NCBI RefSeq assembly: GCF_014904745.1
Contig: NZ_JACZCS010000055.1
Location: 1 to 51,339, forward strand
Direction of reading: 5' to 3'
DNA from: Oricola nitratireducens
GTDB lineage: Bacteria; Pseudomonadota; Alphaproteobacteria; Rhizobiales; Rhizobiaceae
DNA: 51,339 nucleotides
This document shows positions 5,840 through 26,719 of this stretch, one piece after another. The number at the start of each line of letters is the position of its first letter. Within the stretch, counting starts at the first letter, position 1. Below the pieces are notes generated by a model. The model was not told the origin of the DNA, searched no databases, and saw nothing but the letters and a program-made list of their open reading frames with translations. A program made the translations under genes and the position numbers.

Positions 5840-6106
5840 ATGACACCCGAATCCGAGTCCACCCGCGAGGTCCTGAACCGCTATGGCGGCATCGCAACGG
5901 CCTATGACCGGCTCCACGCCCGCTGGTTGCGCCATGCGGGCGGCGAAGCACAAAGCGCCTTCGAGGGCGCGGTGATCGCTTTGGTTCGTCCCAGCGTGCG
6001 TATCCTAGACGCCGATCGGGTCCGCCGGCTGCCTTGTCGTGGCCCGGCCGCCGTGATGATGATCGACAAGCCGGGCGACGTGCCCTCGGAAATCGTCCTC
6101 AGGTAA
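5840..6106 (+). pseudogene. Truncated class I SAM-dependent methyltransferase
   Basis: The frame from the ATG at 5840 (88 codons) starts like the N-terminus of a Rossmann methyltransferase: NRYGGIATAYDRLHARWLRH, later ALVRPSVRILDA. The next residues should be the glycine-rich SAM loop (GCGTG-like), but the frame continues as DRVRRLPCRGPAAV and stops at 6104-6106, three bases past the stop of the convergent gene. No methyltransferase core follows. This looks like a gene cut off at strand 1 by a deletion or rearrangement. It has no clear ribosome-binding site and is probably dead. Confidence 0.6.
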
Positions 6107-7154
6107 AGACCACGCCGTCCATCAGCTTGCGGGCCGTGCGCAGCACCCCCGCGGAAACCACTTCGCCAGTATCGTCCAGCGTGGCGACCACGGAAAATTC
6201 GCCGGTCGGGTGTTCGACCGACAGCGTCTTCGGATTGCCGTCCGGAATCATGGCGATACGGGCAGCCGGACCCGCCTTGAGCAGACACGCCGTGCCGACG
6301 CTGACCGCGCCAAGCACGCCGATCGCCTTGTGGCAGCGATGCGGAATGAAGGTCCGCGTCGAGATGCAACCGCCTTGCATGGCCGGGCTGACCATCGTCA
6401 TCTTCGGCACGGACTTCTCGGACACGTCGCCGAGGTTCATCATCGGACCCGCCTTCAGCCGGATGCTTTCGAGCTTGGCGCGCAAATCCGAATTGGCTTC
6501 CAGCTCTTCCGGTTTTTCCCGGCCGGTAATACCCATGTCCTCCGCCAACAGGACGACGCAGGGCATGCCGTTGTCGATCAGCGTCACCTCGACGCCGTCG
6601 ATCGTGTCGGTCTCGTTGCCCGTTGGCAAAAGCGCACCGCAAGACGATCCGGCGGTATCCTCGAAAATAATGGGCTGCGCCGCCGAGGTGCCCGGCACTC
6701 CGTCGATGCGCGCGTCGCCCGCGTAATCCACCTTGCAGTCAGGCGTATTGACAGTCGCAATGGCGAGTTGGCCCGTATTCTCCATGAAGATGCGCACATC
6801 GGTCGTGCCATCCTGCGCCGGCACAAGACCGCGCTCGATGGCGAACGGGCCGACGCCCGCAAGGATGTTGCCGCAGTTCTGCGAATCCGTGACGATCGGC
6901 TGGTCGACGAACACCTGCAGGAACAGGTAGTCGACATCGGCGCCCTCGCGCTCCGACTTCTTCACGACGGCAATCTTGGACGTCAGCGGATCGGAACCGC
7001 CCATGCCGTCGATCTGGCGCGGATCGGGCGACCCCATGACCCGCAGCAGGAAGACGTCGCGTTCTGCGGTGTCGGCGGGCAGGTCGGAAGCGAGGAAGTA
7101 GCCGCCCTTCGACGTCCCTCCCCGCATCCACATGCAGCGCACGCCCTCAGACAT
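6099..7154 (-). CDS. galD: 4-oxalomesaconate tautomerase (GalD-like, PrpF family)
   Basis: A 351-residue PrpF-fold isomerase. GalD converts the keto form of 4-oxalomesaconate to the enol/hydratable form in the gallate and protocatechuate meta-cleavage routes. Seen here: the N-terminal [14 protein letters not shown] motif, a [21 protein letters not shown] block, the conserved [20 protein letters not shown] segment and [11 protein letters not shown] near the C-terminus, all typical of the family. Length fits. The start overlaps the end of the aldolase gene by 8 bp, so translation is coupled. It is last in the rdhA operon. PrpF-type aconitate isomerases share the fold, but the GalB and GalC neighbours point to GalD. 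Confidence 0.88.
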
Positions 7155-7839
7155 ATTTGAGGCCTTTTTCGGCGAGCCGTTCGCGCATCTTGTATATGTC
7201 TAGACCCAGCTCTCCCGCCTCGAAACGGGCCCGCTTCTCGGCCTCGTTTGCCTCGCGCGCCCGCGCCCTTTCCAGCACCGAGGCCGCCTCTTCGCGGCGC
7301 ACCACGCAGACGCCGTCATCGTCGGCGACGATCACGTCGCCCGGATTGACCAGTTCGCCGGCGCAGACAACCGGCACGTTGACAGAGCCCAGCGTCTCCT
7401 TGACTGTGCCCTGCGCGAAGACCGCCTTGGACCAGACGGGAAATTCCATCTCGGTCAGGTCGCGCGTGTCGCGCACGCCGGCATCGATCACCAGGCCCTT
7501 GCAGCCGCGCACCTTGGCCGATGTCGCCAGCAGGTCGCCGAAATATCCCGCGTCGGACGGCGAGGTCGGCGCGAGGACGAGGATATCGCCCGCCTTGATC
7601 TGCTCGATAGCCACATGGATCATCCAGTTGTCGCAGGGCGGCGCGGAGATGGTCACCGCGGAAGCCGCAAGGCGCGCGCCGGAATAGATCGGCCGCATAT
7701 AGGCCGCGAGCAGGCCCTTGCGGCCCTGCGCCTCGTGGACGGTCGCCACGCCGCATTCGCCGAGACCGTCGATCACCGCCTGGTCGGCGCGCTCGATGTT
7801 CTGGACGACGACGCCCGCTTCTGTCGTCGATCCCGCCAT
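7147..7839 (-). CDS. galC: 4-carboxy-4-hydroxy-2-oxoadipate aldolase (GalC/LigK-like)
   Basis: A 230-residue RraA/MenG-fold class II aldolase that splits 4-carboxy-4-hydroxy-2-oxoadipate into pyruvate and oxaloacetate and usually also decarboxylates oxaloacetate. The metal and substrate motif [12 protein letters not shown] followed by [12 protein letters not shown] (with the R-D pair) is clear near residues 94-126, with a lysine/glutamate-rich C-terminal helix as in LigK. GTG at 7842 is in frame, but ATG at 7839 overlaps the previous stop (TGATG), the usual coupled start. It lies between the galB and galD homologues. Confidence in the reaction comes from family and context together. Confidence 0.9.
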
Positions 7840-8570
7840 CACAGTTCATCCACGGTGCGCGGGAAGACCGACTGGAAGCCTTCCGCATATTTGCAGTCTC
7901 GGCCGCCCGCCTGGCCGCCAGAGTTGCGCTTGAAGTGGTTGGCGCGGTTCTCGGCGACGTTTTCGTAAAAGTGCCAGAGATGCTCCTGGCCCTGCATGCA
8001 CTGGATCGCCGCCCATTTCTTGTCCCAGACCTCGGTGATGTCGAGGAAGACGTCAGGCTTCCATTCCATCTGCTCGGTCTGGTGCGGCTCGAACAGGTAG
8101 AGCTGCGGCGCGCCGAGCACCTTCTGGCCGGGATTGTGCCCCCAGGCCTGGGCAATCATCCGGCAGGTCAGCGCGAAGTCGGTCGTATACATGTGATCCG
8201 TGTTGTACGGATCCCATTTCGAATGGCTCATCATGAAGGCCGGCTGCACGGCGCGAATCACATCGACCATGCGGTCCTGCGTCTCGCGGCCGAGATTGAG
8301 CGGATAGTCGCCGACATCGAAGAACTGGATGTCGTGGACGTCAAGCGCCTTGGCCGCGTTCTCGGCTTCCTTGCGGCGCTCGGTCTTCACCGTTTCGAGC
8401 GTCATGCCTTCCTTCTTCCAGAGCTTGGCGCTTTCACCGCGCTCGCCATAGGACAGGCAGACGACCGTGACGTCGTAGCCGCGTTTCTGATGCAGTGCGA
8501 TCGCGCCGCCGCAGCGCCAGACGAAGTCGGCTGAGTGCGCGCTGATTACCAATGCGGTCTTGTTTGCCAT
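7839..8570 (-). CDS. galB: 4-oxalomesaconate hydratase (GalB-like, PIG-L/LmbE fold)
   Basis: A 243-residue zinc enzyme of the PIG-L deacetylase fold, the subclass represented by Pseudomonas GalB, which hydrates 4-oxalomesaconate to 4-carboxy-4-hydroxy-2-oxoadipate. Seen: [15 protein letters not shown] near residues 8-22 (His12 and Asp15 as metal ligands replacing the deacetylase HPDDE), and [20 protein letters not shown] with the third ligand His near 126. Length matches GalB. It overlaps the aldolase start by one base and follows the dioxygenase gene by 12 bp. It is not the amidohydrolase-type LigJ hydratase. Confidence 0.88.
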
Positions 8571-8582
8571 TCTTTTTGGCTC

Positions 8583-9551
8583 CTATGAGTTCGGTTTGCC
8601 GGGAACCGGCGGGGTACCGTGGGTATGGAAACTTTCGATCGTCTTGAGGCCCCAGGCCTGGCCCTTTTTACGTTCCGCCTCGGTCCAGACGACCGTCTCC
8701 CAGTCCGGCGCCAGGATCAGCCGTGCGCCGGCATTGGCCAGTTCGACGCGGTTGCCGGCTGGCTCCCACACGTAGAGAAAGAACGTGCCCTGGATCGCGT
8801 GCTTGTGCGGTCCGGTCTCGATATGCACACCGTTCTCCAGGAAGATGTCGGCGGCGCGCAGGATGTCCTCGCGCTGGTCGGTGGCATAGGTGACATGGTG
8901 AAACCGGCCCTGCCCGCCGCCATGTTCTTCCGTGCAGGCGAGATCGTAGGTCTTGTTGTTGACAGTGAACCAGCAACCGCCGATCCGGCCGTTATCCAAT
9001 TGGATCATCTCGGTCACGCGGCTGCCGAGGCAGGTCACCATGAACTCGCGGAAGACGGACACGTCCTCGGCGAGAAGGTTGAGGTGATCGAGCCGCCGCG
9101 GGCAGGCGCCCTGCGCATGGAATTTGCTCGCCAGGTTCTTCAGCGCCGGCGTGTCCTCCGGACCGGGTTCGTAACGTCTGGTGTCCCAGTAGATCTCGAA
9201 GACATGCTCGAACGGATCCTCGAAGCGATAGGCCTTGCCGTGACCAAGATCGCCGTCCACCCATCCGATGGATTTGAACCGACTTGCCTCGATCGCGTCG
9301 ACCCGGCGCATCAGAGCCGCTTCCGACGAGGCGCGATAGGCGATATGGCCAACGCCCGTCGTCTCCGAGCGCGTCAGCTTCAGTGTGTGGAACTCGTAAT
9401 CATCCCAAGCGCGCAGATAAACGGAATCGTCGTCGCGACCGCTTTCCTTCAGGCCGTAGACCCGGGTGAAGAAATCGAGGCTTTCCTCGAACTTGTTCGT
9501 CAGCACTTCCACATGCCCGAGATGGGCGATGTCAAAACAGGGTTCGGTCAT
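8583..9551 (-). CDS. Type I (VOC-fold) extradiol ring-cleavage dioxygenase
   Basis: A 322-residue two-domain vicinal-oxygen-chelate dioxygenase resembling catechol 2,3-dioxygenase. The N-terminal module starts at LGHVEV (His13). The catalytic module has iron ligands His156 (RRLDHLNL), His219 (RFHHVTY) and Glu270 (GNRVELANAG), with second-sphere His251 and Tyr260 where XylE has His246 and Tyr255. By my alignment from memory, the XylE/HPCD active-site His199/200 is Tyr202 here (NNKTYDLAC). It sits upstream of galB, galC and galD, where gallate or protocatechuate pathways normally use a type II (LigB-fold) enzyme. The ring substrate is therefore unknown; a trihydroxylated or carboxylated catechol made by the upstream dehalogenase is an inference. 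Confidence 0.85.
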   Translation of the reverse strand: MTEPCFDIAHLGHVEVLTNKFEESLDFFTRVYGLKESGRDDDSVYLRAWDDYEFHTLKLTRSETTGVGHIAYRASSEAALMRRVDAIEASRFKSIGWVDGDLGHGKAYRFEDPFEHVFEIYWDTRRYEPGPEDTPALKNLASKFHAQGACPRRLDHLNLLAEDVSVFREFMVTCLGSRVTEMIQLDNGRIGGCWFTVNNKTYDLACTEEHGGGQGRFHHVTYATDQREDILRAADIFLENGVHIETGPHKHAIQGTFFLYVWEPAGNRVELANAGARLILAPDWETVVWTEAERKKGQAWGLKTIESFHTHGTPPVPGKPNS

Positions 9552-9694
9552 ATCCCGCCGTTCATGTTGGTTTCACAGCTGCAATTTTCCGTGCGGCCCG
9601 AATGCGCCCGCGCGACCTCCTCCGTTGCTTTCGCGAACAGAATACAATGTTTAGCGCAGCGACATTGCGCCAGCCAATTCGAGCGTGGCTCCTT

Positions 9695-9713
9695 CTATAA
9701 GATTTCTCTATAG
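9695..9713. promoter_or_regulatory. Inverted repeat in the gap upstream of the dioxygenase gene
   Basis: CTATAAGATTTCTCTATAG is a near-perfect dyad (CTATAAGA and TCTATAG arms) in the 229-bp gap between the dehydrogenase and dioxygenase genes, about 145 bp before the dioxygenase start. The gap is the only sizeable one in the operon and may hold an internal promoter and operator. No regulator in the window can be assigned to it. Confidence 0.3.
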
Positions 9714-9780
9714 GCCGCCGCCGCGACAGAGATTTCACTGCCTTCAGTCAGCACGTATCGACCTCGAAAGTCGTTGTGGC

Positions 9781-10662
9781 TCAGCGGCTTGCCTTGCGCG
9801 CAGCCAAGACGGTGTCGGCGATGGCTCCGAGATCGTCATTCTCGCTGACCGCGCATCCGAGGTTTCCGACCTCGTCGTGCAAGCTCGCGATCGCGTCGGC
9901 CAATTCGCCACCATTGGCAAAACCCAGTTCACGCATGGAGTTGGCGGATTCGCGCATCTCGGCCGCGCGGCGCACGCCGTGCCGCATCATGCGCTCGAAC
10001 TGGTATTCGGCAAAATCCGGCCAGCCAAGCACCTTGTAGGAACCCGAGAGCGATGTGTAGACCTCGTCGAAACAGCCGGCCTGCCGCGCCGCCGCGATTG
10101 CCTGCACGGTGATTGCTTCAAGTCCCTTCACAAACAGGCTGCGGATCATCTTGATCGACGTCGCCGCGCCGACCTCGTCACCCACGACCGTGAAATCGAA
10201 CTCCAGACGCTGAAGCGCCTCGGCGATCTCGCCGCCATGATCGCCGGCGATCAACACCGGCGTCCTGTGCCCGCGCGGATGCACCGGCGCCATTACCGCC
10301 ATGTCGACGTAACGGGCGCCCCTGCCGCGCACCAGCGCCGCCGTCTCCTGTTTGCGTTTCGCGGAGACTGAGTTGATGTCGACATAGACCTGACCCTCCG
10401 TGAGCCCGTTTTCGATGGATCGCGCCGCCTCGAGACTGCTTGCTGCTGTCACGGCCGAGATGATCCAGTTCGCACCCTCGATAGCCGCGACCGGGCCGTC
10501 TCCCAACGCAACGCCGAGATCGGCGGACGCCTTCTCGATCTCGCTCGAACGGTCCGTGCCCTGCAGGATGTCGAAGGCGGTGAAGCGTCCGGTGCCGAGG
10601 GGTTTCAGGCTACTGACAAAAGCCCGCGCGGCTTCGCCAAATCCGATGAATCCGATGTGCAT
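9781..10662 (-). CDS. NAD(P)-dependent oxidoreductase, DUF1932 / 6-phosphogluconate dehydrogenase-like
   Basis: A 293-residue beta-hydroxyacid-dehydrogenase-fold protein. The N-terminal Rossmann domain begins MHIGFIGFGEAARAF (GxGxxA), an active-site strand VYVDINSVSAKRK lies near 95, and the C-terminal helical DUF1932 domain spans about 190-265. Members oxidise or reduce small hydroxy- or oxo-acids; the exact reaction is rarely known. It lies 12 bp after the rdhA stop and 229 bp before the dioxygenase gene, all on one strand. It could oxidise a ring-cleavage semialdehyde, the place LigC fills in protocatechuate 4,5-cleavage, but it is not a LigC homologue by eye. Family assignment firm, function open. 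Confidence 0.8.
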   Translation of the reverse strand: MHIGFIGFGEAARAFVSSLKPLGTGRFTAFDILQGTDRSSEIEKASADLGVALGDGPVAAIEGANWIISAVTAASSLEAARSIENGLTEGQVYVDINSVSAKRKQETAALVRGRGARYVDMAVMAPVHPRGHRTPVLIAGDHGGEIAEALQRLEFDFTVVGDEVGAATSIKMIRSLFVKGLEAITVQAIAAARQAGCFDEVYTSLSGSYKVLGWPDFAEYQFERMMRHGVRRAAEMRESANSMRELGFANGGELADAIASLHDEVGNLGCAVSENDDLGAIADTVLAARKASR

Positions 10663-10674
10663 GATGGTCTGTCC

Positions 10675-13600
10675 CTAGAGATCGATCGTGACGATACCGC
10701 CGTCTTCGGCCGCCCGCGACTGGCAGAGGATGATCGCATTCTCGCGCTGTTTTTTCGACAGTACGAAATCGCGATGCTCCACCGAGCCGGAAACCAGACC
10801 GCATTTGCAGACACCGCATATACCGTCGGAGCATTTGACGTCGATATGGATCCCGTTTTCCGCGAGCACGTCGGTTGCGGTCTTGTCGGCCGGTATCAGG
10901 AATTCCTTGCCAGACTTCGCCAGCCGCAAAGTGAACGGATGGTTCTCCCATTCCGGCAAGTCCGGCACCGAGAAATATTCCAGATGCCGCGCCTCCTCCG
11001 GAAAGCCCTGCCGCTCTGCCGCCTCGATCACGCCCTGCATGTAGCGGTCCGGTCCGCAGGTATAGACGTGCCAGCCTTGCTCGTAACCCGACAGCACCTT
11101 GTCGAGATCGGCCCGCGTCCCCTCCGCAGTTACGTGAACATAGACATGATCATGCCACGGCACATCGGCGAGATCGTCCAGATAGCCTGCCATGTCACGG
11201 GACCTGACCGAATAGTGCATCGCGAAATCCGCGCCGATGGCATGCAGCCGGTGCGCCATCGCGATCATCGGCGTGATCCCGATCCCTCCACCCATCAAAA
11301 AGATTTTCGTCGCCGTCTCGTCGAGCGGAAAATGGTTGATCGGCTTTGATATGAAAACCCTGCGGCCTTCGGCGAAGATGCGGTGCATCAGTTTCGAGCC
11401 GCCCCTGCCCTCGTCCTCGCGCAGCACGCCGATCTGGTATTTCGACCGATCGGCAGGATCGCCCGACATCGAGTATTGCCTGAGATATTCCGGTGCGACG
11501 ACGATATCGAGATGCGCGCCGGCCTCCCATTCCGGCAGGTCCGAGCCGTCGAGCGCGCGGAACTCGTACTTGGTGACGTCGTCCGTCATCTTCTCGGCCT
11601 TGGAAACGACGGCGCGCAGCACCGGGCTTTCCCCGGCAGCGGTGTAACGGTGGACGTGGCTTTCGTCGCCCTCGTCCAGTCGCGCCCTGTATTCGTCCGC
11701 CGTGATCAGCGCCTGATAGGCCTCGATGCCCTTCTCCCGGTCCATCGGGAACGGATAGGGCCACGGATGGGGCGCGAGATCGGCCGGATAGACGGCTAGC
11801 GTCTGGTCCTCGTATTTGAGGTCGAGATCGATCTGCAGGTCGCGCCGGTTGACCGGATGCCTGGTCGGCCGGTAACCGCCGTCCTCCTCGATCTCGAGAT
11901 CCCACCACCATTTCTTGATGTCGTTCAGGCCGCCATTGCCGACCGCGTCGTCCAGCTTCGCGAGCCAGGGCGCCGCGGACGGAATGTTGGACGCCATCCA
12001 GCGGAACGGCGCCTCCGCGAACAGGCCTTCCAGGTTCCACGGGCAGGTCTTCATGCAACGCCCGCACATCGCCCCGCCTTCCGTGGTGATACGGTAGGTC
12101 GCGCATTTCTGGCTGTCGGATTTCCAGATCTCGTAACCGTTGAACATCAGCTTCGGTCCGGCCGTGATCGCCCCCGACGGGCATTCGCGCGCGCATTTAT
12201 TGCAATTCTCGCAAAAGTTCTGCAGTCCGAAATCGATCGGCTTGTCATGCGCCAACGGCATGTCCGTCGTCACGACGCCGGATTTCAGCCGCGGGCCGAG
12301 ATAGGGATTGAGGATCACCTCGCCGATGCGGCTGACCTCGCCGAGGCCCGACAACAAAAGCAGCGGCGGCTGCAGCACCTCGCCGTCCAGAACGGTATGC
12401 GCCTTGGCCTTGTAGCCGAGATTGCGGATCTGCCTGGCGATGACGCCGCCGAGCAGCGAAAAGCGCAGATAGGCGCGCATCGACTGGGCGACCGAGATCC
12501 AGTCATCGCCCGACGCGCCTTCCATGGTCTCGTAGCCCTGGTCGACGATCATCGAAATTGCCTGGTCGTGCGGCGGATCGATCGGCTCACCGGTCGCGTC
12601 GTGCGAATACCAGGCCCAGTCCGGGCAACGCGACAGGCCCACCGCATCGACTCCGAGAAAGTAACTGGCCGCCTTGATGTTTTCGGCGTTGCGTCGTGCG
12701 TCCTTCGCCGTGGCCGGAATGTCCGCCGCCGGCTCGCCGTCCTGCAGCAGAACAAAGGCGCCGAGCACGCGGCGCTGTCCCATCGACGGCGCGGCCTTGC
12801 GCGCGTAATGCCCGCCCTTCGCGCCGTCCTGGCAGGCCCTGCCCATGTCGCCGAATTGCGCGCGGGCGAACATATCGGTGCGTTTCGGCACCCGGGCTAC
12901 CCGCTCTTCATCGATGAAGGTCGTCGGCTCGTCGATCCGCTTCAGCTTTTCGAACGGATGCGCCCCGTCGACGAAACGCCGGTTGGCGTATGGCTCGCGG
13001 TTGAAGGCGTTCTTCGCAATGCCTGCGCCGACCCACCAGGCCGGGCCCCTGGTCCGCCAGAACGGTTGCTCGGACAGTGCCGCCAGCGGGAGATCCGTTT
13101 CCATGGCGAAGGTCGTCGTCACCGCTGCGACGCCGAACCGGTCGCCGGCATAGGGATTGACCAGCCTGCCGCCCTCGGCGCGCGCCAGCCCCGCCGCGAC
13201 CGTCAGCCGGTTGAGATCGACATCCGAAGACGTGCCGGTGTGCGCCTTAGCATCGAAGCCGAGGAGCCGGATATAGTTGGCGATGACGACGGCGGTCTCG
13301 GAAGCCCGCAAACAGGCGCGTTCGGCCTGCGCGTCGATTATCCATTCCGCGCCCGGCTCGTCCGGCCTCGGATCGCGCGGATATTCGTAGAGAAACACGA
13401 TCGCGTGGCTGTGCCCGTCGATGGTCGACGGCGGTGCCTCCATCGATTCCTTGAGATCGGCCATGATCATGTCGATGCCCGACGCCAGCGTCTTGGTCTG
13501 ACGGGTCTTGAGATCATGCGCCAGCCGGTCGATGGCCGGATTGCGGATCGGTTCATCGAGCAACGCGGTTCCCGGCAGTGCGCAAATCCCGATCATGCTG

Positions 13601-13893
13601 GCGTCGGAAAAATAGCCGAAACCCTTGATGTGGTTGGCGCGCTCGACCGGGTCATCCGGGCAGCCGGCTTTCGCCTTGTTGACGAGGCCGTCGCGGATCG
13701 CGTCCAGCATCGCCTGGTATTCGCCCATGGCGTTGACCAGGCTTTCAGGCTTATCCGGCCGCTCGAATGTGAGCCCCGCCATCGCCGGCACATCGGCGAA
13801 ATCGGGCATGGCCGCCGCCCGGTCCAGCCGCTCCAGAGGATACGGTCCCATATGCACCGGCCGGTGCCGATCGGAAAAGAAACGAATGCCCAT
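10675..13893 (-). CDS. rdhA: Self-sufficient catabolic reductive dehalogenase (RdhA fused to flavin/[2Fe-2S] reductase)
   Basis: A 1072-residue cobalamin-dependent dehalogenase of the cytosolic, non-respiratory BhbA/NpRdhA class, which removes halogen from ortho-halophenols such as halo-4-hydroxybenzoates using NAD(P)H. Order: corrinoid-binding dehalogenase core (about 1-540); [4Fe-4S] motifs Cys561/564/567/571 and Cys597/610/613/617; linker; FNR-like flavin domain (RQYS at 805, NAD site GGGIGITPM at 868); plant-type [2Fe-2S] domain with Cys1021/1026/1029/1057. Tyr475 (SMRAY) and Lys537 (RLKS) are 62 apart, the spacing of catalytic Tyr426/Lys488 in NpRdhA. No Tat signal and no rdhB anchor. 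An upstream GTG at 13941 is in frame, but GGTGGAGG precedes the ATG at 13893 and MGIRFFSDRHRPVHMGPYPL is the family start. It heads the ring-cleavage operon. Confidence 0.93.
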   Translation of the reverse strand: MGIRFFSDRHRPVHMGPYPLERLDRAAAMPDFADVPAMAGLTFERPDKPESLVNAMGEYQAMLDAIRDGLVNKAKAGCPDDPVERANHIKGFGYFSDASMIGICALPGTALLDEPIRNPAIDRLAHDLKTRQTKTLASGIDMIMADLKESMEAPPSTIDGHSHAIVFLYEYPRDPRPDEPGAEWIIDAQAERACLRASETAVVIANYIRLLGFDAKAHTGTSSDVDLNRLTVAAGLARAEGGRLVNPYAGDRFGVAAVTTTFAMETDLPLAALSEQPFWRTRGPAWWVGAGIAKNAFNREPYANRRFVDGAHPFEKLKRIDEPTTFIDEERVARVPKRTDMFARAQFGDMGRACQDGAKGGHYARKAAPSMGQRRVLGAFVLLQDGEPAADIPATAKDARRNAENIKAASYFLGVDAVGLSRCPDWAWYSHDATGEPIDPPHDQAISMIVDQGYETMEGASGDDWISVAQSMRAYLRFSLLGGVIARQIRNLGYKAKAHTVLDGEVLQPPLLLLSGLGEVSRIGEVILNPYLGPRLKSGVVTTDMPLAHDKPIDFGLQNFCENCNKCARECPSGAITAGPKLMFNGYEIWKSDSQKCATYRITTEGGAMCGRCMKTCPWNLEGLFAEAPFRWMASNIPSAAPWLAKLDDAVGNGGLNDIKKWWWDLEIEEDGGYRPTRHPVNRRDLQIDLDLKYEDQTLAVYPADLAPHPWPYPFPMDREKGIEAYQALITADEYRARLDEGDESHVHRYTAAGESPVLRAVVSKAEKMTDDVTKYEFRALDGSDLPEWEAGAHLDIVVAPEYLRQYSMSGDPADRSKYQIGVLREDEGRGGSKLMHRIFAEGRRVFISKPINHFPLDETATKIFLMGGGIGITPMIAMAHRLHAIGADFAMHYSVRSRDMAGYLDDLADVPWHDHVYVHVTAEGTRADLDKVLSGYEQGWHVYTCGPDRYMQGVIEAAERQGFPEEARHLEYFSVPDLPEWENHPFTLRLAKSGKEFLIPADKTATDVLAENGIHIDVKCSDGICGVCKCGLVSGSVEHRDFVLSKKQRENAIILCQSRAAEDGGIVTIDL

Positions 13894-14058
13894 GCCTCCA
13901 CCCGTGAACATCCGCGCCGAAAACGGCGCATGATCGTTCACGTGTTAAGCTAATCGGGCGCAATGCGCTACCGGCGGACGCATATCCGATTGGCGCGGGA
14001 TGACTGTTGGAGAATACGCGCGCGGCCAGCCCGCCCATGGCAGGCGGCGCTCCACGGG

Positions 14059-14793
14059 TTACAGATATGGTTGGTGTTTGAGGCGATGCCCTGCCGCGCG
14101 CCGTATTTTCGTGTCGGGGAGCGACAGGGCGTATCGCGCCAGGGAATGACATTCCCGCAGCACTTCGTCGACCTCGTAGCGAAACCGTTTCCGGCGTCCC
14201 GGCGGATAACCGGGCCGCAGGACCGACAGACGGCGTGGGCGGTCGTCGGTTCTGGCCTCGGACCGAGCGCGCCAGCGAGCGAGGCGACGGGCCTGTCCGG
14301 GGAGATCGTCCAGCGCGCGCTTCAGCGCGTGCAGGCGGCAGCAGAGACGTTCCGCATTGACGGGATCGTCGGGCGACGGGAACCAGTCTTCCGGGATCGG
14401 GGCTGGTTCGGAAAGCCCAATGAAAGTGATGCGCGGAAACGACTTGGGACGACGTCGGGGCGGGACGAACGAAAAACGCTTGAGCGGATCGAGCAGCGGG
14501 AGGGCCGGTGTCGCGCCGACGGTATCGACCTTCGCGGATCGAGGCTTGGGGCCGGGCCCGGGAGTAACTCCGGGAATATTCCGCACCTCGACGACCACCC
14601 CGCGGGCCGCGATGACGATCAGACGACGGACAGCAGATTCAGCGGGGCGCAGGATGCGCAGCACGAGCGAACGCAGATGGCGCGGCAGCGTGGCTACGCT
14701 CCCGCCCTCACCCAGACCGACCAGGGCGAACAGCGCCATGACGATGCGCTCGAGTGCCTCGCGGTTGCGTTCTATCGCCAAGTCCCAGTTCAT
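14059..14793 (-). CDS. Conserved hypothetical protein
   Basis: A 244-residue protein without signal peptide or clear membrane span. It starts MNWDLAIERNREALERIV, continues with LPRHLRSLVLRILRPAESAVRRLIVIAARG (about 39-65), then a proline-rich middle (PGPGPKP, VPPRRRPKSFPRI) and an Arg-rich C-terminal part (PPGRRKRFRYEVDEVLREC). I recall similar proteins in other Rhizobiales genomes but no function. The strongly basic C-terminal half could bind nucleic acid; that is only a guess. The long open frame opposite is a compositional shadow. It is isolated between rdhA and the LysR gene. Confidence 0.6.
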   Translation of the reverse strand: MNWDLAIERNREALERIVMALFALVGLGEGGSVATLPRHLRSLVLRILRPAESAVRRLIVIAARGVVVEVRNIPGVTPGPGPKPRSAKVDTVGATPALPLLDPLKRFSFVPPRRRPKSFPRITFIGLSEPAPIPEDWFPSPDDPVNAERLCCRLHALKRALDDLPGQARRLARWRARSEARTDDRPRRLSVLRPGYPPGRRKRFRYEVDEVLRECHSLARYALSLPDTKIRRAAGHRLKHQPYL

Positions 14794-14940
14794 TCGGTTT
14801 CATCACTCTCCGTTTCGCGCCCCGGCACCCGCCCTCCTTGTCGGACAGAATGCATCCGGGGAGAGGGCATCAAGAGAATAGGAGAAGCTGGAGAGCGGTG
14901 GACAAGTTTTGTCCGGCGACCTCGTGTCGAGCCTTCCGTC

Positions 14941-15831
14941 TCACCTGTCGCGCACGAACCGCCCCGCTTCCGCCTTCACGATCTCGTTGAGAAACCCGGT
15001 CGCCGCCCTGATGCGCGCAAGCCCGCGCAGGCTCTCGTGATGAACGATCCAGTAGGCGCGTTGCGCCGAAAGTTCCGGCAGGACCGGCACCAGCTCCGGA
15101 TGGCCGGCGGCGAGATAATCGTGCAGAACGCCGATACCCGCGCCTGCACGCACGGCCTCAAGCTGACCGGTCGCGCTCGAAATCTCGATCCGCGACCGCC
15201 ACCCGGACCAGAAGGATGCCGCATAATTGAGCGACGCCGCATAGATCAGGTCTTCCACATAGCCGACGAGCCGGTGATCACGCAGGCCGTCGGTCGATAG
15301 CGGCAGGCCATGCGTTCCGGCGTATGCGCGCGAGGCGTAAAGGCCGAGCGTGTAATCCGTCAGCTTCTGTGCGATCAGGCGGCCCTGCTCCGGCCGGCCG
15401 ACCATCACCGCGATATCAGCCTCGCGCTTCGACAGCGAGAAGGCTTGCGGCACGGGCACGAGCTGAACGGTAAGCTTTGGGTGACGGTTGGAGAATTCCG
15501 CCAGCCGCGGCGCCAAAAAGGAAACACCGAACCCGTCCGGCGCACCGATGCGCACCGTGCCGGACACCTGCAGTTCCGCTTCGCTCAGGACCGACTGCGC
15601 CTGCATGAATTCCGCCTCGATGCGCTCCAGCGATGCGGCAAGCGCCTCGCCGTCTTCCGTCAGTTCGCAGCCATTGGCACGCCGGATCAAGAGATTCGCT
15701 CCGACCGATTTCTCCAGCGCTGCCATCCGCCGGCTGAGCGTCGCCTGGTTGATTCCGAGCGCCTTTGCGGCGCCTAGCATCTGCCCGGCCCGCGCAACCG
15801 CGAGAAACAGCCGTCCGTCTTCCCAGTTCAT
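14941..15831 (-). CDS. LysR-family transcriptional regulator
   Basis: A 296-residue LysR regulator. The winged helix-turn-helix occupies about residues 1-60 (MNWEDGRLFLAVARAGQMLG, then LGINQATLSRRMAALEK). The periplasmic-binding-type effector domain spans about 90-290 (VRIGAPDGFGVSFLAPRL). It is divergent from mmsA with a 16-bp perfect palindrome in the 101-bp shared promoter region, so mmsA is the likely target, probably with autoregulation. The effector is unknown; a valine or propanoyl metabolite would fit the target. Confidence 0.9.
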   Translation of the reverse strand: MNWEDGRLFLAVARAGQMLGAAKALGINQATLSRRMAALEKSVGANLLIRRANGCELTEDGEALAASLERIEAEFMQAQSVLSEAELQVSGTVRIGAPDGFGVSFLAPRLAEFSNRHPKLTVQLVPVPQAFSLSKREADIAVMVGRPEQGRLIAQKLTDYTLGLYASRAYAGTHGLPLSTDGLRDHRLVGYVEDLIYAASLNYAASFWSGWRSRIEISSATGQLEAVRAGAGIGVLHDYLAAGHPELVPVLPELSAQRAYWIVHHESLRGLARIRAATGFLNEIVKAEAGRFVRDR

Positions 15832-15932: not shown

Positions 15933-17435
<1,503 letters not shown>

Positions 17436-17455
17436 CCTTGAGCTTCAATAAAATA

Positions 17456-17489
17456 CGGCCGCGCCGGGATGACCGGCGCGGCCGTTTTT
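17456..17489. terminator. Strong intrinsic terminator between mmsA and the convergent SDR gene
   Basis: CGGCCGCGCCGG (17456-17467) pairs perfectly with CCGGCGCGGCCG (17473-17484) over a GATGA loop and is followed by TTTTT. It ends mmsA transcription and probably limits read-through from the convergent operon too. Confidence 0.9.
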
Positions 17490-17510
17490 GCGTTCAAGTC
17501 GGTGCAAGGC

Positions 17511-18272
17511 TTATTTCGGCGCCATGCGGATCGCACCATCGAGGCGGACGACCTCGCCGTTGAGATACGTGTTCTCGACCATGAAGCGGGCCATTTCGGC
17601 GAATTCGGCCGGCTTGCCGAGGCGAGACGGGTACGGAATGGCCGCCGCGAGGCTCGACTGCACCTCTTCGGGCATTCCCTGCAGCAGCGGCGTCAGGAAG
17701 ATGCCCGGCGCGATCGTGTTGACGCGAATGCCGAAGCGGGCCAGTTCGCGCGCCGCCGGCAACGCCATCGACACGATCCCGCCCTTCGACGCCGAATAGG
17801 CCGCCTGGCCGATCTGGCCGTCGAAGGCCGCCACCGAGGCGGTGTTGATGATGACACCGCGCTCGTTGTCGTCCAGCGCATCCTGCGTGGACATCCGCGC
17901 CGCCGCGACGCGCAGCATGTTGAACGAGCCGATCAGATTGACCCGGATCACTTTCTCGAAATCGCCAAGCGGCATCGGCCCTTCCCGGCCAACGATACGC
18001 GACGCCGGGCCGATGCCGGCGCAATTGACGAGAATGCGCAGGTTTCCGAAGCTTTCCACCGCCGCGTCGACCGCGCGGTCGGCGTCGTCTTCCTTGGAGA
18101 CGTCGCCGGCAACGGCGACGCCGCCGATTTCCTGCGCCGCCTTGGCGGCCGCTTCGGCGTTGAGGTCGAAGACCACCACATTCGCGCCCGCCTTGGCGAA
18201 GAGATCCGCCACCGCCCGTCCGAGACCGGACGCGCCGCCCGTGACGATTGTGCCTGCACCTTCAAGTTTCAT
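17511..18272 (-). CDS. Short-chain dehydrogenase, 3-hydroxyacyl-CoA dehydrogenase type
   Basis: A 253-residue NAD-dependent SDR. Cofactor motif TGGASGLG is at residues 11-18, NCAGIG near 83-88, catalytic Ser in INTASVAAFDG and the pair YSASKGG near 158-164. The overall pattern is that of HSD10-like 3-hydroxyacyl-CoA dehydrogenases. Its start overlaps the stop of the CoA synthetase gene (ATGA), so it belongs to the hydroxycinnamate unit. The likely role is oxidation of 3-hydroxy-3-aryl-propanoyl-CoA to the 3-oxo thioester before side-chain cleavage, as I recall for the Agrobacterium hydroxycinnamate pathway. Family certain; substrate inferred. Confidence 0.85.
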   Translation of the reverse strand: MKLEGAGTIVTGGASGLGRAVADLFAKAGANVVVFDLNAEAAAKAAQEIGGVAVAGDVSKEDDADRAVDAAVESFGNLRILVNCAGIGPASRIVGREGPMPLGDFEKVIRVNLIGSFNMLRVAAARMSTQDALDDNERGVIINTASVAAFDGQIGQAAYSASKGGIVSMALPAARELARFGIRVNTIAPGIFLTPLLQGMPEEVQSSLAAAIPYPSRLGKPAEFAEMARFMVENTYLNGEVVRLDGAIRMAPK

Positions 18273-20131: not shown

Positions 20132-20181
20132 CACTTCCTCCCGGATCCGTCCGTCTAGATGTTTGTGCCTTCCAACGTCTG

Positions 20182-20209
20182 TTGACGCAATGGCGCGAAT
20201 TCGTATAAT
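20182..20209 (+). promoter_or_regulatory. Sigma70-type promoter of the hydratase-marR-TRAP operon
   Basis: TTGACG (20182-20187) and TATAAT (20204-20209) are 16 bp apart, a near-consensus promoter directed towards the hydratase gene. The expected start point is about 20216, inside or beside the MarR-type dyad at 20217-20232. Confidence 0.7.
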
Positions 20210-20216
20210 TCAGAAA

Positions 20217-20232
20217 AGTATCCTAGTAAACT
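20217..20232. promoter_or_regulatory. MarR-type operator at the transcription start
   Basis: AGTATCCTAGTAAACT is an imperfect dyad (six of eight pairs match around a CTAG centre; symmetry extends into the flanking A/T runs). It covers the predicted start site of the operon encoding the CouR-like regulator. A repressor bound here would block initiation and could also act on the divergent fcs gene. Confidence 0.5.
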
Positions 20233-20286
20233 ATTTCGCCGGAATATATCTGGGCCGTAGCAGCGACAATCGAGCAGGGTGGAAAC

Positions 20287-21081: not shown

Positions 21082-21082
21082 G

Positions 21083-21562
21083 ATGCAGGATCTCGACGTC
21101 AAGGACACCGTCGCCGACGAAGTCGACATGCGCGACCTCGTCGATTCGCTTGGCTTCCTCACCCGGCTTGCCCAGGTACACACTTACGAATTGTTCTTCG
21201 AGGATCTCGGCGATGACGGCCCGCGTCCGGGCGAGTTCTCGACCCTGATTCTGCTCGAACGCAACCCGGGCATCCGGCAGGGCGTGCTGGCGCAGAAACT
21301 GCGCATCAAGCCGGCCCACATGACCAAGCTCGTCCGCGCCTTCGAGGATCGCGGCTTTGTCGAGCGCATCATCCCCGATCACGACCGCCGCTCGGTGGAA
21401 CTCGCCCTGACCGCGCTCGGCAGGAAGTACGTCGCCGAACACAGGCCGGCTTTCCTGGAACACGAAACCCGGAAACCGCCGACGCTCACAGCGTCCGAAA
21501 TCAGGACGCTGAAACATCTTTTACGCAAATATGTCGGCATGGCCGCGGAGGACCGATCATGA
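21083..21562 (+). CDS. MarR-family regulator (CouR/HcaR-like)
   Basis: A 159-residue MarR repressor. Winged helix-turn-helix spans about residues 60-110: GIRQGVLAQKLRIKPAHMTK is the recognition region and IPDHDRRSVELALT the wing with the usual DRRS motif. Flanking helices form the dimer interface. It starts two bases after the hydratase stop and overlaps the amidohydrolase start (ATGA). Embedded between hydroxycinnamate genes, it resembles CouR of Rhodopseudomonas and HcaR of Agrobacterium, which sense hydroxycinnamoyl-CoA thioesters. The dyad at 20217-20232 is the probable operator. Confidence 0.9.
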   Translation: MQDLDVKDTVADEVDMRDLVDSLGFLTRLAQVHTYELFFEDLGDDGPRPGEFSTLILLERNPGIRQGVLAQKLRIKPAHMTKLVRAFEDRGFVERIIPDHDRRSVELALTALGRKYVAEHRPAFLEHETRKPPTLTASEIRTLKHLLRKYVGMAAEDRS

Positions 21563-22434: not shown

Positions 22435-22460
22435 CCGGGCGATTATCGGGAGGAATATCG

Positions 22461-23558
22461 ATGAAATTCAAGTTGAAACTCGCGGGAGCGGCGCTGGCCG
22501 CGTCCCTTATGGCTCTCGCCAGCCATGCCGGTGCGCAAGACTTGCGCGCCGCCCCCGCCGCGCCGCCGGTCCACCCGGCGCACTACATGTACGAAAAATT
22601 CGCCAAATATCTCGCCGAGGAATCGGGAGGCAAGATGACGGCCACCATCTACGGCCCGGAAGTCATAGCGCTGCCGCAGATGAAGGACGCGCTGCAGACC
22701 GGGCTCGCCGATGTCGGCAACGCCTTGCCGCTCTATTTCGCCGCGGACTTCCCGCAGACGGGTGTCGCCGGCGACCTCGCCCTGATGGGCCGCAGCCCCT
22801 ACGCCATGGGCCTTGCAATGACGGAATTCGGCGTCAACTGCGCTGTTTGCCAGGAGGAGTTCAAGAAATTCGGCGGCGTGTTCCTCGGCTCCGGCTCCTC
22901 CGACGTCTATGTTCTGCTGACCACCAAGCCGGTTCGCTCGATTGACGACCTGAAGGGCCTTCGCCTGCGCTCGGGCGGTGCGCCCTATTCGCGCTGGGCC
23001 GAGCATTTCGGCGCCACTCCGGTAAACCTGCCGGTCGGCCAGACTTTCGAAGCTATGAGCCAGGGTACGATCGACGGCACCATGGCCTCGATTGTCGACA
23101 TGCTGTCCTATCGTCTTGTCGACGTGGCGAAATACGTGACCATGGTGCCATTGGGCACCTATCACGTGACCTCGAACTTCACCGTCGCGACCAGCACCTG
23201 GGCCAAGTTCGATATGGATCAGCGCAAGGCAGTCGTCGCCGCGGCCAACCGCGCCGATCCGCAGATGACCTCGCGCTGGGGCTTCCAGCTTCCGGCCGAC
23301 GCCATGGCAGCCGTGAAGGCCAACGATTCGATCGAGATCATCGAACCCGATGCGGCTTTCCTCAAGACCTCCAACGACTTCTCCATGTCCGACGTGGCAG
23401 AGCGCTCGGCGTCGAGCGAACTGTCCGCGCAGTTCGCCGAACTGGTGAAGAAATGGACGGCCATCGTCGATGAGGTTGGCGAGGATCCGGACGCGCTCGC
23501 GGCACGGGCGCAGGACGAGATCTGGTCGAAGGTCGATCTTTCCACCTACGGCCAGTAG
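22461..23558 (+). CDS. TRAP transporter substrate-binding protein (DctP family)
   Basis: A 365-residue periplasmic binding protein. A Sec signal peptide covers about residues 1-25 (positively charged MKFKLKLAG, hydrophobic core, cleavage after SHAGAQ). The mature part has the DctP fold with the conserved region VRSIDDLKGLRLRSGG (about 153-168), including the arginine that clamps the substrate carboxylate, followed by VNLPVGQTFEAMSQGTIDG. GGGAGGAATATCG precedes the ATG. It lies 26 bp after the amidohydrolase gene. An aromatic acid such as p-coumarate or ferulate is the likely ligand from context (compare TarP-type systems of Rhodopseudomonas). Confidence 0.9.
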   Translation: MKFKLKLAGAALAASLMALASHAGAQDLRAAPAAPPVHPAHYMYEKFAKYLAEESGGKMTATIYGPEVIALPQMKDALQTGLADVGNALPLYFAADFPQTGVAGDLALMGRSPYAMGLAMTEFGVNCAVCQEEFKKFGGVFLGSGSSDVYVLLTTKPVRSIDDLKGLRLRSGGAPYSRWAEHFGATPVNLPVGQTFEAMSQGTIDGTMASIVDMLSYRLVDVAKYVTMVPLGTYHVTSNFTVATSTWAKFDMDQRKAVVAAANRADPQMTSRWGFQLPADAMAAVKANDSIEIIEPDAAFLKTSNDFSMSDVAERSASSELSAQFAELVKKWTAIVDEVGEDPDALAARAQDEIWSKVDLSTYGQ

Positions 23559-23569
23559 TCACCCAACAA

Positions 23570-23594
23570 CCCGGCCCGCATGGCGCGGGCCGGG
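23570..23594 (+). promoter_or_regulatory. Intercistronic hairpin between dctP and dctQ
   Basis: CCCGGCCCGC (23570-23579) pairs perfectly with GCGGGCCGGG (23585-23594) over a five-base loop. There is no T-run. Such stems after binding-protein genes commonly stabilise the upstream message or cause partial termination, giving more binding protein than permease. An ATG in its loop (23580) is unlikely to be the dctQ start. Confidence 0.6.
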
Positions 23595-23615
23595 CATCTT
23601 ACCGGGAACCGGACC

Positions 23616-24134
23616 ATGCAGAGCCTCGTGAAACTGGCGACGGGCATTGCGCGTGTCATGGGTTATATCGGCGCTTTCGCCGTCGTGGCGATGATGCTGC
23701 ATATCTCCCTTGACGTCTTTCTGCGCAATGTCTTCCGCTATTCGATGAATACGGTGCCGGAAGTCGTCGCCCGGTACTACATGACCGCCCTCGCCTTCCT
23801 GCCTCTGGGCTGGCTCGAATTCAGGCGGCAGATGATCTCGGTCGAGCTGCTGGATTTCGCCCTTTCGCCGCTCATGCGCCGGATCTCCGATACGCTTGTG
23901 ATGGTTGTGGCGGCCACGGCCTATGGGTTGCTCGCCTGGACCAACTGGGACAAGGCGCTATCCGAGACGCGCTCGGGCACGCTGGTGGAAATCGCCACCT
24001 ACAAGATGGCAGTCTGGCATTCCTTTTACTTTGCGCCCGTGGGCTTTACCCTGGCCTGTCTGTGCTGCGTGATCCTCGCAGTCGGCCAGATCAGCCCAAG
24101 CCTCGGCGCCCGGATCGACGAGGCCGTTCAATGA
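23616..24134 (+). CDS. TRAP transporter small permease (DctQ family)
   Basis: A 172-residue inner-membrane protein with four predicted helices (about 18-40, 52-70, 90-108 and 133-153) and the family segment SLDVFLRNVFRYSMNTVPEVVARYYMTALAFLPL. The small subunit scaffolds the large permease DctM. The frame is open from ATG 23580, but that codon lies in the loop of a perfect hairpin; the ATG at 23616 gives the usual DctQ N-terminus. Its stop overlaps the dctM start (ATGA). Confidence 0.88.
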   Translation: MQSLVKLATGIARVMGYIGAFAVVAMMLHISLDVFLRNVFRYSMNTVPEVVARYYMTALAFLPLGWLEFRRQMISVELLDFALSPLMRRISDTLVMVVAATAYGLLAWTNWDKALSETRSGTLVEIATYKMAVWHSFYFAPVGFTLACLCCVILAVGQISPSLGARIDEAVQ

Positions 24135-25432
24135 GCGTTGAAATCGGCATTTACGGCGTCATCGTCCTGGCGCTGCTTCTGGTCCTGCGCCTGCCGGTGG
24201 CGCTGGCGCTGATCCTGGTCTCGTTCACCGGCATCTGGACGATGATTGGTCTGCGTCCGGCACTCGGCATTCTTGAAAACACGCCCTATTCCTTTGTTGC
24301 GTCCTGGACCATGAGCGCCGTGCCCATGTTCCTTCTCATGGGCTTTGTCGCGTTTCATACCGGCATGACAGCCGGACTGTTCGATGCCGCGAAGGTGGTG
24401 CTGGCGCGATTGCCCGGAGGACTTGCCATATCGTCGATCTTCGCATGTTCGGCCTTCGCCGCGATGTCGGGATCGTCCGTCGCCACGGCCGCCGCGATGG
24501 GGCGTATCGCGATCCCGGAAATGGTGAAGGCGGGCTATCGGCCGTCGATCGCCTCGGGCGCGATCGCCGCCGGGGGCACGATCGGCGCACTCATACCGCC
24601 GTCGATCCTCATGATCATTTATGGGATCATCGCCGAAACCTCTGTGACCCAGGTCTTTATCGGCGGGTTCTCGATCGGTATTACCACCGCGATTTCCTAT
24701 TCGCTCGTGATCCTCATCATCTCGTGGCTTCGTCCTGACATGATCCCGCCCCGCGTGTCGGTGGAGAAGGGCGAGGCAGGCCGTATCTTGTTCCAGCTCC
24801 TGCCGGTCTCGGTGCTGGTTTTTGTCGTTTTCGGCGGGCTCTTTTCCGGCTTGTTCACCGCCACCGAGGCAGGCGCTGTCGGCGCGCTTGGCACGATCAT
24901 CATCGCCGCCTTTACCGGCAGGCTCACCCGGGATGCCGTGTCACGCTCGCTTCTCGAGACGGTGACGACCACCGGCTCGCTGCTGATCATCGGCATCGGC
25001 GCAACTATGTTCACGCGATTTCTCGGGCTATCGGGATTGCAGAATTTCATCACCCAGTTCGTGAGCGGCGCCGACATCGGCTACGTGCAGCTGATGTTGG
25101 TCATCGTTGCCGTCTACCTGGTCCTCGGCACCTTCATGGAGCCTTTCGGCGCCATGCTGATCACGCTGCCGGTGCTGCTGAGCGTGCTTCAGGCGCAGCA
25201 TATCTCGCTGGTATGGTTCGGCGTGCTGGTGGTGAAGCTCCTGGAGATCGGCATGATCACGCCGCCGGTGGGACTGAACGTTTTCGTCATCCGCAACGTG
25301 GCGGCAGAACACGTGACCACGGTGCAGGTCTTCAAGGGTGTGATCCCGTTCCTGCTGGCCGATCTGGTCGTGGTGGCCATCGCCATCGCTTTTCCGGGTT
25401 TCGTCCTCTTCCTGCCGTCGCTGCTGAAATAG
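24131..25432 (+). CDS. TRAP transporter large permease (DctM family)
   Basis: A 433-residue polytopic membrane protein of the DctM/ion-transporter superfamily, which carries out Na+-coupled uptake of the substrate handed over by DctP. About twelve hydrophobic segments are visible. Typical motifs are SWTMSAVPMFLLMGFVAF, FACSAFAAMSGSSVATAAAMGRIAIPEM and AAGGTIGALIPPSILMIIYG, with ITPPVGLNVFVIRNVA near the end. The start ATG overlaps the dctQ stop. Last gene of the operon; a hairpin follows at 25453. Confidence 0.92.
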   Translation: MSVEIGIYGVIVLALLLVLRLPVALALILVSFTGIWTMIGLRPALGILENTPYSFVASWTMSAVPMFLLMGFVAFHTGMTAGLFDAAKVVLARLPGGLAISSIFACSAFAAMSGSSVATAAAMGRIAIPEMVKAGYRPSIASGAIAAGGTIGALIPPSILMIIYGIIAETSVTQVFIGGFSIGITTAISYSLVILIISWLRPDMIPPRVSVEKGEAGRILFQLLPVSVLVFVVFGGLFSGLFTATEAGAVGALGTIIIAAFTGRLTRDAVSRSLLETVTTTGSLLIIGIGATMFTRFLGLSGLQNFITQFVSGADIGYVQLMLVIVAVYLVLGTFMEPFGAMLITLPVLLSVLQAQHISLVWFGVLVVKLLEIGMITPPVGLNVFVIRNVAAEHVTTVQVFKGVIPFLLADLVVVAIAIAFPGFVLFLPSLLK

Positions 25433-25452
25433 CGGCGTGAAAGCGACAAAAA

Positions 25453-25480
25453 GGCCCGGACGCCTGCAGGTGTCCGGGCC
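25453..25480. terminator. Bidirectional terminator between dctM and pobA
   Basis: GGCCCGGAC (25453-25461) pairs with GTCCGGGCC (25472-25480) around a near-palindromic CCTGCAGG loop. On the minus strand the stem is followed by TTTTT, which suits termination of pobA; on the plus strand it is followed by ATTT after dctM. Confidence 0.8.
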
Positions 25481-25507
25481 ATTTCATCTTCGGCGCATGG
25501 GCCCCGC

Positions 25508-26719
<1,212 letters not shown>

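Follow-up and report, generated by a model that had tools for sequence, protein, structure and literature searches.

What would a reductive dehalogenase contribute to an operon for the 4-oxalomesaconate route, and from which aromatic rings would such an operon be fed? The question is raised by a locus of Oricola nitratireducens, located on contig NZ_JACZCS010000055.1 (the whole stretch analysed, 51,339 nucleotides, is called the window below), where six intact genes run in one direction on the minus strand from 13941 to 6099: rdhA, a DUF1932 dehydrogenase gene, the gene of a VOC extradiol dioxygenase, galB, galC and galD. A sequence-only reading had proposed a linear pathway in which a halogenated ring is dehalogenated, cleaved and degraded by this gene set. 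Its co-location of dehalogenation with the 4-oxalomesaconate route was retained, whereas the supposedly missing genes, the gap-filling role of DUF1932 and the lack of precedent were not. The reading preferred here, to which we assign a probability of about 0.6, is a two-entrance model consisting of a halogen-removing front end and a tail shared by protocatechuate and gallate, with VOC as the second entrance. Gene identities, order, conservation, co-occurrence and residues were read from sequence, and we infer all reactions and substrates.

According to the two-entrance model, RdhA would draw on NAD(P)H through a fused reductase domain and replace an ortho-halogen, most likely bromine or iodine, by hydrogen on phenols of the 4-hydroxybenzoate type. 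The resulting 4-hydroxybenzoate would be converted to protocatechuate by PobA, encoded at 25.5 kb in the window, and the protocatechuate ring would be opened by LigAB, followed by LigC oxidation to 2-pyrone-4,6-dicarboxylate and LigI hydrolysis to 4-oxalomesaconate, with candidate genes on contigs C20 and C35 of the same genome. At the second entrance, VOC would most likely turn gallate directly into 4-oxalomesaconate, with neither LigC nor LigI, and GalD, GalB and GalC of the operon would take both branches to pyruvate and oxaloacetate. DUF1932 would serve the whole route as a core enzyme that depends on NAD(P). Few clusters are known that use reductive dehalogenation aerobically to gain carbon, and dehalogenation joined to a gallate/protocatechuate tail in a probably marine genus would bear on natural bromophenol cycling.

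The operon and its reductive dehalogenase

Frames, family searches and structure searches bore out six co-directional genes in the order claimed by the sequence-only reading. The junctions, in gene order, measure +12, +229, +12, −4 and −8 bp, and four of the five are tight, as that reading had it (at most 12 bp, two of them overlaps). The longest, a gap of 229 bp (9552..9780), parts rdhA and DUF1932 from VOC and galBCD. The rdhA gene (10675..13941) had been recognised, but its start had been placed at 13893, an internal ATG at which the alignments of several homologues begin, instead of at 13941. The six genes are predicted to be co-transcribed. A scan of 5900–14950 found no sigma-70-like promoters (shuffled sequences gave a mean of 1.7), and no inverted repeats were found in the 229-bp gap.

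The rdhA product contains a corrinoid domain, two 4Fe-4S cysteine motifs (C577/580/583/587 and C613/626/629/633) and a C-terminal reductase-like domain with 2Fe-2S. It matched TIGR02486 at 201 bits (cut-off 160), shares 50.8% identity with BhbA of Comamonas sp. 7D-2 (residues 19–1088), and scored 549 and 546 bits against PDB entries 6zxu and 4ras, both of which we take to be NpRdhA. Residues 8–123 and 176–756 align to 6zxu and cover the dehalogenase core including its N-terminal part, while residues 771–1079 align to the phthalate dioxygenase reductase-like 2pia, with Fer2 at 1009–1077. Moreover, Y491, K553 and R617 align with Y426, K488 and R552 of NpRdhA, which agrees with a uniform numbering shift of 27 along the 6zxu chain; the numbering Tyr426/Lys488/Arg552 and the active-site roles of these residues are assumed by us. 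By these matches, RdhA is a self-sufficient catabolic reductive dehalogenase of the BhbA/JtRdhA type, predicted to carry out NAD(P)H-dependent ortho-dehalogenation.

In the available text of the JtRdhA study (PMC10463259), this protein of Jhaorihella thermophila is NADPH-dependent and self-sufficient, has no TAT signal, and acts best on 3,5-dibromo-4-hydroxybenzoate and at about half that rate on 3-bromo-4-hydroxybenzoate; those chlorinated compounds that were tested inhibited it. By this description it has the same domain order and fused reductase as RdhA of the window. The same text states that every catabolic RdhA characterised so far is specific for ortho-halogenated phenols, and the substrate list given there includes no halogenated di- or trihydroxybenzoate such as halogenated gallate. 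JtRdhA and Ros_A3X954 of Roseobacter sp. are described, in the available parts of the two sources, as marine alphaproteobacterial debrominases of ortho-brominated phenols (PMC10463259, PMC13101508). The two-entrance model is preferred in part because RdhA combines about 51% identity to BhbA with the NpRdhA residues and because JtRdhA prefers 3,5-dibromo-4-hydroxybenzoate.

The same six-gene order was found in three of the five other genomes of the genus (G002, G004 and G005). G003 has kept rdhA-DUF1932-galBCD with VOC missing (between 12538 and 12790 of its locus L103), and G001, the fifth congener, had no match to RdhA or VOC. LigB, LigC and LigI are also present in G003, and the retention of these genes and of the rest of the operon after the loss of VOC is a further reason for the two-entrance model. 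Amino-acid identity to the congener operons is 76–99%, and identity at third codon positions is 56–79% (60–68% for rdhA). For every gene, the VOC absent from G003 excluded, amino-acid identity exceeds third-position identity, which suggests that all six genes are under purifying selection.

Identities to the congener loci L101, L102 and L104 are uneven along the operon (6099–13941). They reach 95–99% for galB and galC and just 76–80% for VOC and DUF1932, with third-position identities of 0.75–0.79 and 0.56–0.66, respectively, a pattern that hints at recombination inside the operon.

Neighbourhoods of rdhA and the protocatechuate branch

A search of 394 genomes of the family for RdhA (E ≤ 1e-200) gave 41 places in 40 genomes, and the flanks of all 41 were searched, some of them on short contigs. 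Conservation of the block elsewhere, on which the sequence-only reading had staked its pathway, was not observed beyond one genus: the six genes were found together in 4 of the 41 places, the window included, all of them in Oricola, and the block minus VOC in one place of the same genus. The neighbourhood rdhA-DUF1932-ligC-ligB-ligA-pobA-galB-galC was found in two places (G297 and G341, where the fetched stretch ends at galC), and pobA directly follows rdhA in two more (G044 and G394), as it does in G088 outside the family. On the contig of G044 that carries rdhA-pobA, LigC, LigB, DUF1932, GalD and LigI lie about 21–28 kb away.

A more complete arrangement is found on plasmid pOM-1 of Nitratireductor sp. 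OM-1, where rdhA adjoins DUF1932-ligC-ligB-ligA-pobA, followed by galB-galC-galD-ligI; ligC and ligI are what we take the genes annotated 'Gfo/Idh/MocA' and 'amidohydrolase' to be. On this plasmid, rdhA already has the 4-oxalomesaconate enzymes as neighbours. The pOM-1, G297 and G341 clusters share with the window rdhA beside DUF1932, pobA, galB and galC, and rdhA of the pOM-1 type belongs to the BhbA-like branch (50–51% identical to that of the window). The pOM-1 cluster differs in having LigABC and LigI where the window has VOC, and in being divided into several divergent operons. The two-entrance model is also preferred because rdhA repeatedly adjoins pobA (G088, G044, G394) or DUF1932-ligCBA-pobA-galB-galC (OM-1, G297, G341).

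On plasmid pBHB of Comamonas 7D-2, ligA-ligB, bhbB (presumably the name of the transporter-binding-protein gene) and bhbA all point the same way, with a PobA-like frame of 281 aa, shorter than PobA, just before ligA; no DUF1932, VOC or galBCD match was found in the 33 kb examined. BhbA, a 3,5-dibromo-4-hydroxybenzoate dehalogenase, has the same domain order as RdhA of the window, and in both clusters dehalogenation is coupled to aerobic meta-cleavage, although ring cleavage in pBHB is by LigAB and the window operon carries VOC. The available text of PMC10463259 has this plasmid cluster lead from bromoxynil to 4-carboxy-2-hydroxymuconate-6-semialdehyde. The claim that no comparable gene set had been described is therefore not supported in view of the known ligA-ligB-bhbB-bhbA cluster and, because of the pBHB and pOM-1 clusters, the coupling of a self-sufficient RdhA to protocatechuate meta-cleavage is to be regarded as known. 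The operon is a variant of this bhb-type coupling and resembles a herbicide-degrading cluster, with the VOC branch and DUF1932 as its less expected parts. Among the open-licence papers listed, none pairs a reductive dehalogenase with 4-oxalomesaconate.

The absence of LigAB and LigI was confirmed by tblastn for the window and does not extend to the genome, where contig C20 carries ligB-ligA-ligI and ligC, and contig C35 a second ligAB. LigA of C20 scored over the NF009918 cut-off. The best solved relative of LigI is 4d8l, a 2-pyrone-4,6-dicarboxylate hydrolase (363 bits), and LigI scores under the cut-off of the sole NCBIfam model that it matched; the best solved relative of LigC is PmdC, 9azo (446 bits). 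C20 also contains a LysR gene 41% like the gal-linked LysR, and no galBCD was found in the 19.9 kb examined. The pobA gene for 4-hydroxybenzoate 3-monooxygenase (25508..26680, minus strand; 686 bits, cut-off 539) lies outside the operon in the same window. With LigA, LigB, LigC, LigI and the 4-oxalomesaconate enzymes all present, the protocatechuate 4,5-cleavage set is complete in the genome, spread over several loci. An operon route wholly without ring-cleavage and lactonase steps was rejected, given ligAB, ligC and ligI elsewhere in the genome and pobA in the window. The window's Amidohydro_2 protein (21559–22434) was likewise rejected as a LigI, against which its best blastp E value was 0.12.

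The tail itself is assigned by family and structure matches. The 4-oxalomesaconate tautomerase gene galD (6099..7154) matched NF033377 at 531 bits, over the cut-off, with 6p3j, (4E)-oxalomesaconate Delta-isomerase, as best PDB match; galC (7147..7842), for 4-carboxy-4-hydroxy-2-oxoadipate aldolase, matched TIGR02798 at 390 bits, also over the cut-off; and galB (7839..8570), for a 4-oxalomesaconate hydratase of the PIG-L type, has 5cgz, a 4-oxalomesaconate hydratase, as best PDB match (311 bits). Since this galD is the only one found in the genome at E ≤ 1e-60, the products of protocatechuate 4,5-cleavage should pass through the operon's tail.

If the operon were instead a self-contained linear pathway, the substrate of RdhA would be a halogen-bearing trihydroxybenzoate such as halogenated gallate, VOC would open gallate to 4-oxalomesaconate, and GalD, GalB and GalC would finish the degradation. 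The gene order and tight junctions agree with this, as do a VOC-GalBCD module that is likely to serve gallate and the presence of the full block in four of the six species sampled from the genus, that of the window among them. We nevertheless consider it unlikely, since G003 lacks VOC and retains the rest, rdhA-DUF1932 stands apart from VOC-galBCD by the operon's longest gap and, outside the genus, 4 of 36 family RdhA places have pobA or ligCBA adjacent to rdhA and none has VOC.

VOC and DUF1932 in the 4-oxalomesaconate route

The VOC protein (8583..9551), a type I extradiol dioxygenase assigned to its fold by homology, belongs to Glyoxalase PF00903 and scored 306.0 bits against TIGR03211 (catechol 2,3-dioxygenase), under the cut-off of 320.2; it had no PF02900 match, i.e. 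it is not a LigB-type enzyme like GalA or DesB. The metal triad H156, H219 and E270 is conserved in 81 of 81 VOC sequences, all of which also have Tyr202 at the His200 position and Thr246 at the Arg243 position. His200 is, as we assume, the acid-base residue of homoprotocatechuate 2,3-dioxygenase, and a role of Arg243 is likewise assumed; the HpaD-like VOC encoded in the same genome keeps His and Arg at these positions. VOC thus shares with homoprotocatechuate/catechol 2,3-dioxygenase its sequence family, the metal triad and the equivalents of Trp192, His248 and Tyr257, but differs in Tyr for His200, Thr for Arg243 and the genomic link to GalBCD. For PDB 9WGJ, the closest solved relative of VOC, no paper was found.

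At least 590 relatives of VOC were confirmed in a scan of genome contigs, of which the best 80 were kept with flanking sequence of at most 10 kb. Among these 80 loci, galB and galD were both found in 55, a gal-type LysR gene in 50, DUF1932 in 35, a LigM-type demethylase in 27, LigI in four, LigB in two and RdhA in one (G004); LigC was found in none. The LigM-type copy of L023 has a vanillate/3-O-methylgallate O-demethylase as its best PDB match, and a tannase gene directly follows galD on the Agrobacterium pAt plasmid. VOC-GalBCD without RdhA is widespread.

Co-occurrence was examined in 101 relatives, in 34 of which GalD was counted (at least 60% identity); the genomes are related, and p-values serve only as a guide. 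E limits were 1e-25 for DUF1932 and 1e-30 for both LigB and LigC, and LigI was counted at 47% or more. The counts leave out 15 genomes with GalD at 40–52%, 10 with LigI-like matches at 33–43% and G048 with a LigC-like match at 31%. They include the partial matches of GalD in G016 (61% over residues 158–350) and RdhA in G083 (contig end), and matches with in-frame stops of VOC (G032, G091), LigI (G005) and RdhA (G002, G088). Sixteen of the 34 galD genomes had VOC without LigB, eight LigB without VOC, seven both and three neither, and VOC and LigB tend to replace each other (p 0.03; 0.011 without the window's own genus). None of the 16 VOC-only galD genomes had LigC, and 11 of them lacked LigI at the above threshold. 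The LigB search also caught six matches of 40–43% in long frames (426–538 aa), probably DesB/GalA-like, and enzymes of that kind should therefore seldom have been missed.

Within the two-entrance model, VOC is probably an alternative ring-cleavage enzyme for gallate, because LigC is absent from all 16 VOC-only genomes, a LigM-type gene accompanies 27 of the 80 loci and tannase follows galD on pAt. With gallate as substrate, no dehydrogenase or lactonase would be needed after VOC. The suggestion that VOC makes 4-oxalomesaconate directly thus survives in part: VOC probably feeds that route in many bacteria, but ring-cleavage genes are not missing here. A VOC enzyme of this kind, labelled 'catechol 2,3-dioxygenase' or else 'VOC family protein' in annotations, appears to be in use in many rhizobia, agrobacteria, roseobacters and pantoeas.

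In known gallate and syringate pathways, GalD, GalB and GalC (or LigU, LigJ and LigK) have the same roles as in the window, but the ring-cleavage enzymes LigAB, DesZ, DesB, GalA and MgaAB are presumably all LigB-type, whereas the window has a VOC-type enzyme in that place. These five are the ring-cleavage enzymes named in the available text of the NGC7 syringate study (PMC12314914), and gallate dioxygenases are placed in the LigB superfamily in that of PMC4250580. A VOC-type gallate dioxygenase was not recognised among the open-licence papers listed, and the available parts of PMC4250580, PMC12311729 and PMC2784041 describe none. No paper was found joining gallate, Agrobacterium, walnut and extradiol cleavage.

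DUF1932 (9781..10662; PF09130) is related to the 6-phosphogluconate/beta-hydroxyacid dehydrogenase fold and has Lys171 at the usual catalytic position, by a position rule that we take to hold for this dehydrogenase group. It was found in 32 of the 34 GalD genomes and in two others (p 1e-21, odds ratio 520), i.e. it tracks the 4-oxalomesaconate route almost perfectly; the control, HpaD-like VOC, also tracks GalD but far less (16 of 24, odds ratio 6.6, p 2e-4). Moreover, DUF1932 is present in 24 of 25 VOC genomes and in all 15 LigB genomes, 14 of which have LigC, and 25 of its 35 places have galD, VOC or ligC at a distance of 10 kb or less. By this distribution, DUF1932 is a core part of the route with either ring-cleavage enzyme. 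It is not merely a substitute for LigC, because it accompanies VOC and LigB alike, and a simple LigC replacement was rejected given its co-occurrence with LigB plus LigC. The same counts, together with its place beside ligC in pOM-1, speak against the earlier proposal that DUF1932 fills a ring-cleavage or lactonase gap. A search for literature naming DUF1932 found only unrelated papers.

A bolder reading would make VOC and DUF1932 an unrecognised second feed of the 4-oxalomesaconate route in Alphaproteobacteria and Enterobacterales, where the Tyr-for-His200 dioxygenase would open gallate or protocatechuate and DUF1932 would provide a redox step common to both ring-cleavage types. RdhA would have been added in front here, giving one operon that takes halogenated gallate or protocatechuate to pyruvate and oxaloacetate. 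We regard this as doubtful; if it were true, the halogenated gallate or protocatechuate would stem from algal or tannin-like polyphenols.

Counter-evidence, other readings and neighbouring genes

Several observations weigh against the two-entrance model. The lig genes proposed for the upper route lie on contigs other than that of the operon, and 32 of the 41 RdhA places had none of DUF1932, VOC, GalBCD, LigABC or PobA in the flanks searched. Among the 101 relatives, the co-occurrence of RdhA with the pathway genes is weak: 8 of 13 for galD (p 0.03) and 7 of 13 for LigB (p 0.0004, five of the seven from one genus). As for a gallate-cleaving VOC, tannase was found in none of the best 80 VOC loci and in just one of seven VOC plasmid regions examined by annotation. 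Two of the 11 LigI-less VOC-only genomes had weaker LigI-like matches (G038 at 43%, G040 at 34–37%). PobA lies near VOC in 6 of the 80 loci, directly adjacent in L043 and L045. All six of these PobA copies keep Tyr385, which presumably governs product choice; they should yield protocatechuate, which favours a protocatechuate-cleaving VOC.

These PobA copies were rejected as gallate makers, and they bring in the alternative that VOC acts on protocatechuate as a type I 4,5-dioxygenase. DUF1932 would then oxidise the semialdehyde to 4-carboxy-2-hydroxymuconate/4-oxalomesaconate, bypassing 2-pyrone-4,6-dicarboxylate, LigC and LigI. Besides the pobA genes adjoining VOC, the presence of DUF1932 in nearly all VOC genomes and the lack of LigC in VOC-only galD genomes agree with such a bypass, and a LigM-type enzyme can also supply protocatechuate from vanillate. 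We judge it quite unlikely, as DUF1932 is equally present with LigAB and LigC, would be redundant beside ligC in the OM-1 cluster, and in 10 of 35 places lies more than 10 kb from any galD, VOC or ligC.

The many RdhA places without partner genes would be expected if rdhA were a passenger that had been inserted next to a gallate module in a single genus and served bromophenol detoxification or use independently of the gal genes. A MarR-like gene near rdhA in 12 of the 41 places, TRAP genes near several and a sulfatase near a few point the same way. We hold this to be very unlikely, because the arrangement persists over deep divergence within the genus, as seen in the third positions of rdhA, with a 12-bp junction to DUF1932, and because independent rdhA-pobA and rdhA-lig/gal neighbourhoods exist.

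The sulfatase-like genes adjoin rdhA or stand no more than a few kb from it in three genomes (L108, 333–1976, and L109, 11379–13055, both tested against PF00884; L181, near 13017), and sulfated algal bromophenols as the source compound are a speculation from this adjacency. One in-frame stop occurs in each of the rdhA matches of G002, G088, G394, G240, G423, G318, G224, G265 and G103, which may reflect decay, sequencing error or read-through of the match.

In the window, 15933–27637 is a hydroxycinnamate/4-hydroxybenzoate-like region with genes for an MMSDH-family aldehyde dehydrogenase, an acyl-CoA synthetase-like protein, a crotonase, MarR, the Amidohydro_2 protein, a TRAP transporter, PobA and an HpaA-like regulator. 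The transporter (22461..25432, plus strand; DctP 22461–23558, DctM 24062–25432) lies near pobA and possibly takes up aromatic acids. On contig C17 of the same genome, at about 26.1–29.5 kb, an HpaD-like VOC has a LigB-superfamily frame and a frame resembling aldehyde dehydrogenases as neighbours; together they are probably a homoprotocatechuate-type cluster. The window also contains a two-component system (31096–33529), NiFe hydrogenase genes (34577–39213; large and small subunits, HupH and a maturation protease) and a frame of 2878 aa (42594–51230) with DUF5801, bacterial Ig-like, VWA and RTX repeat domains, which is perhaps a secreted giant adhesin-like protein.

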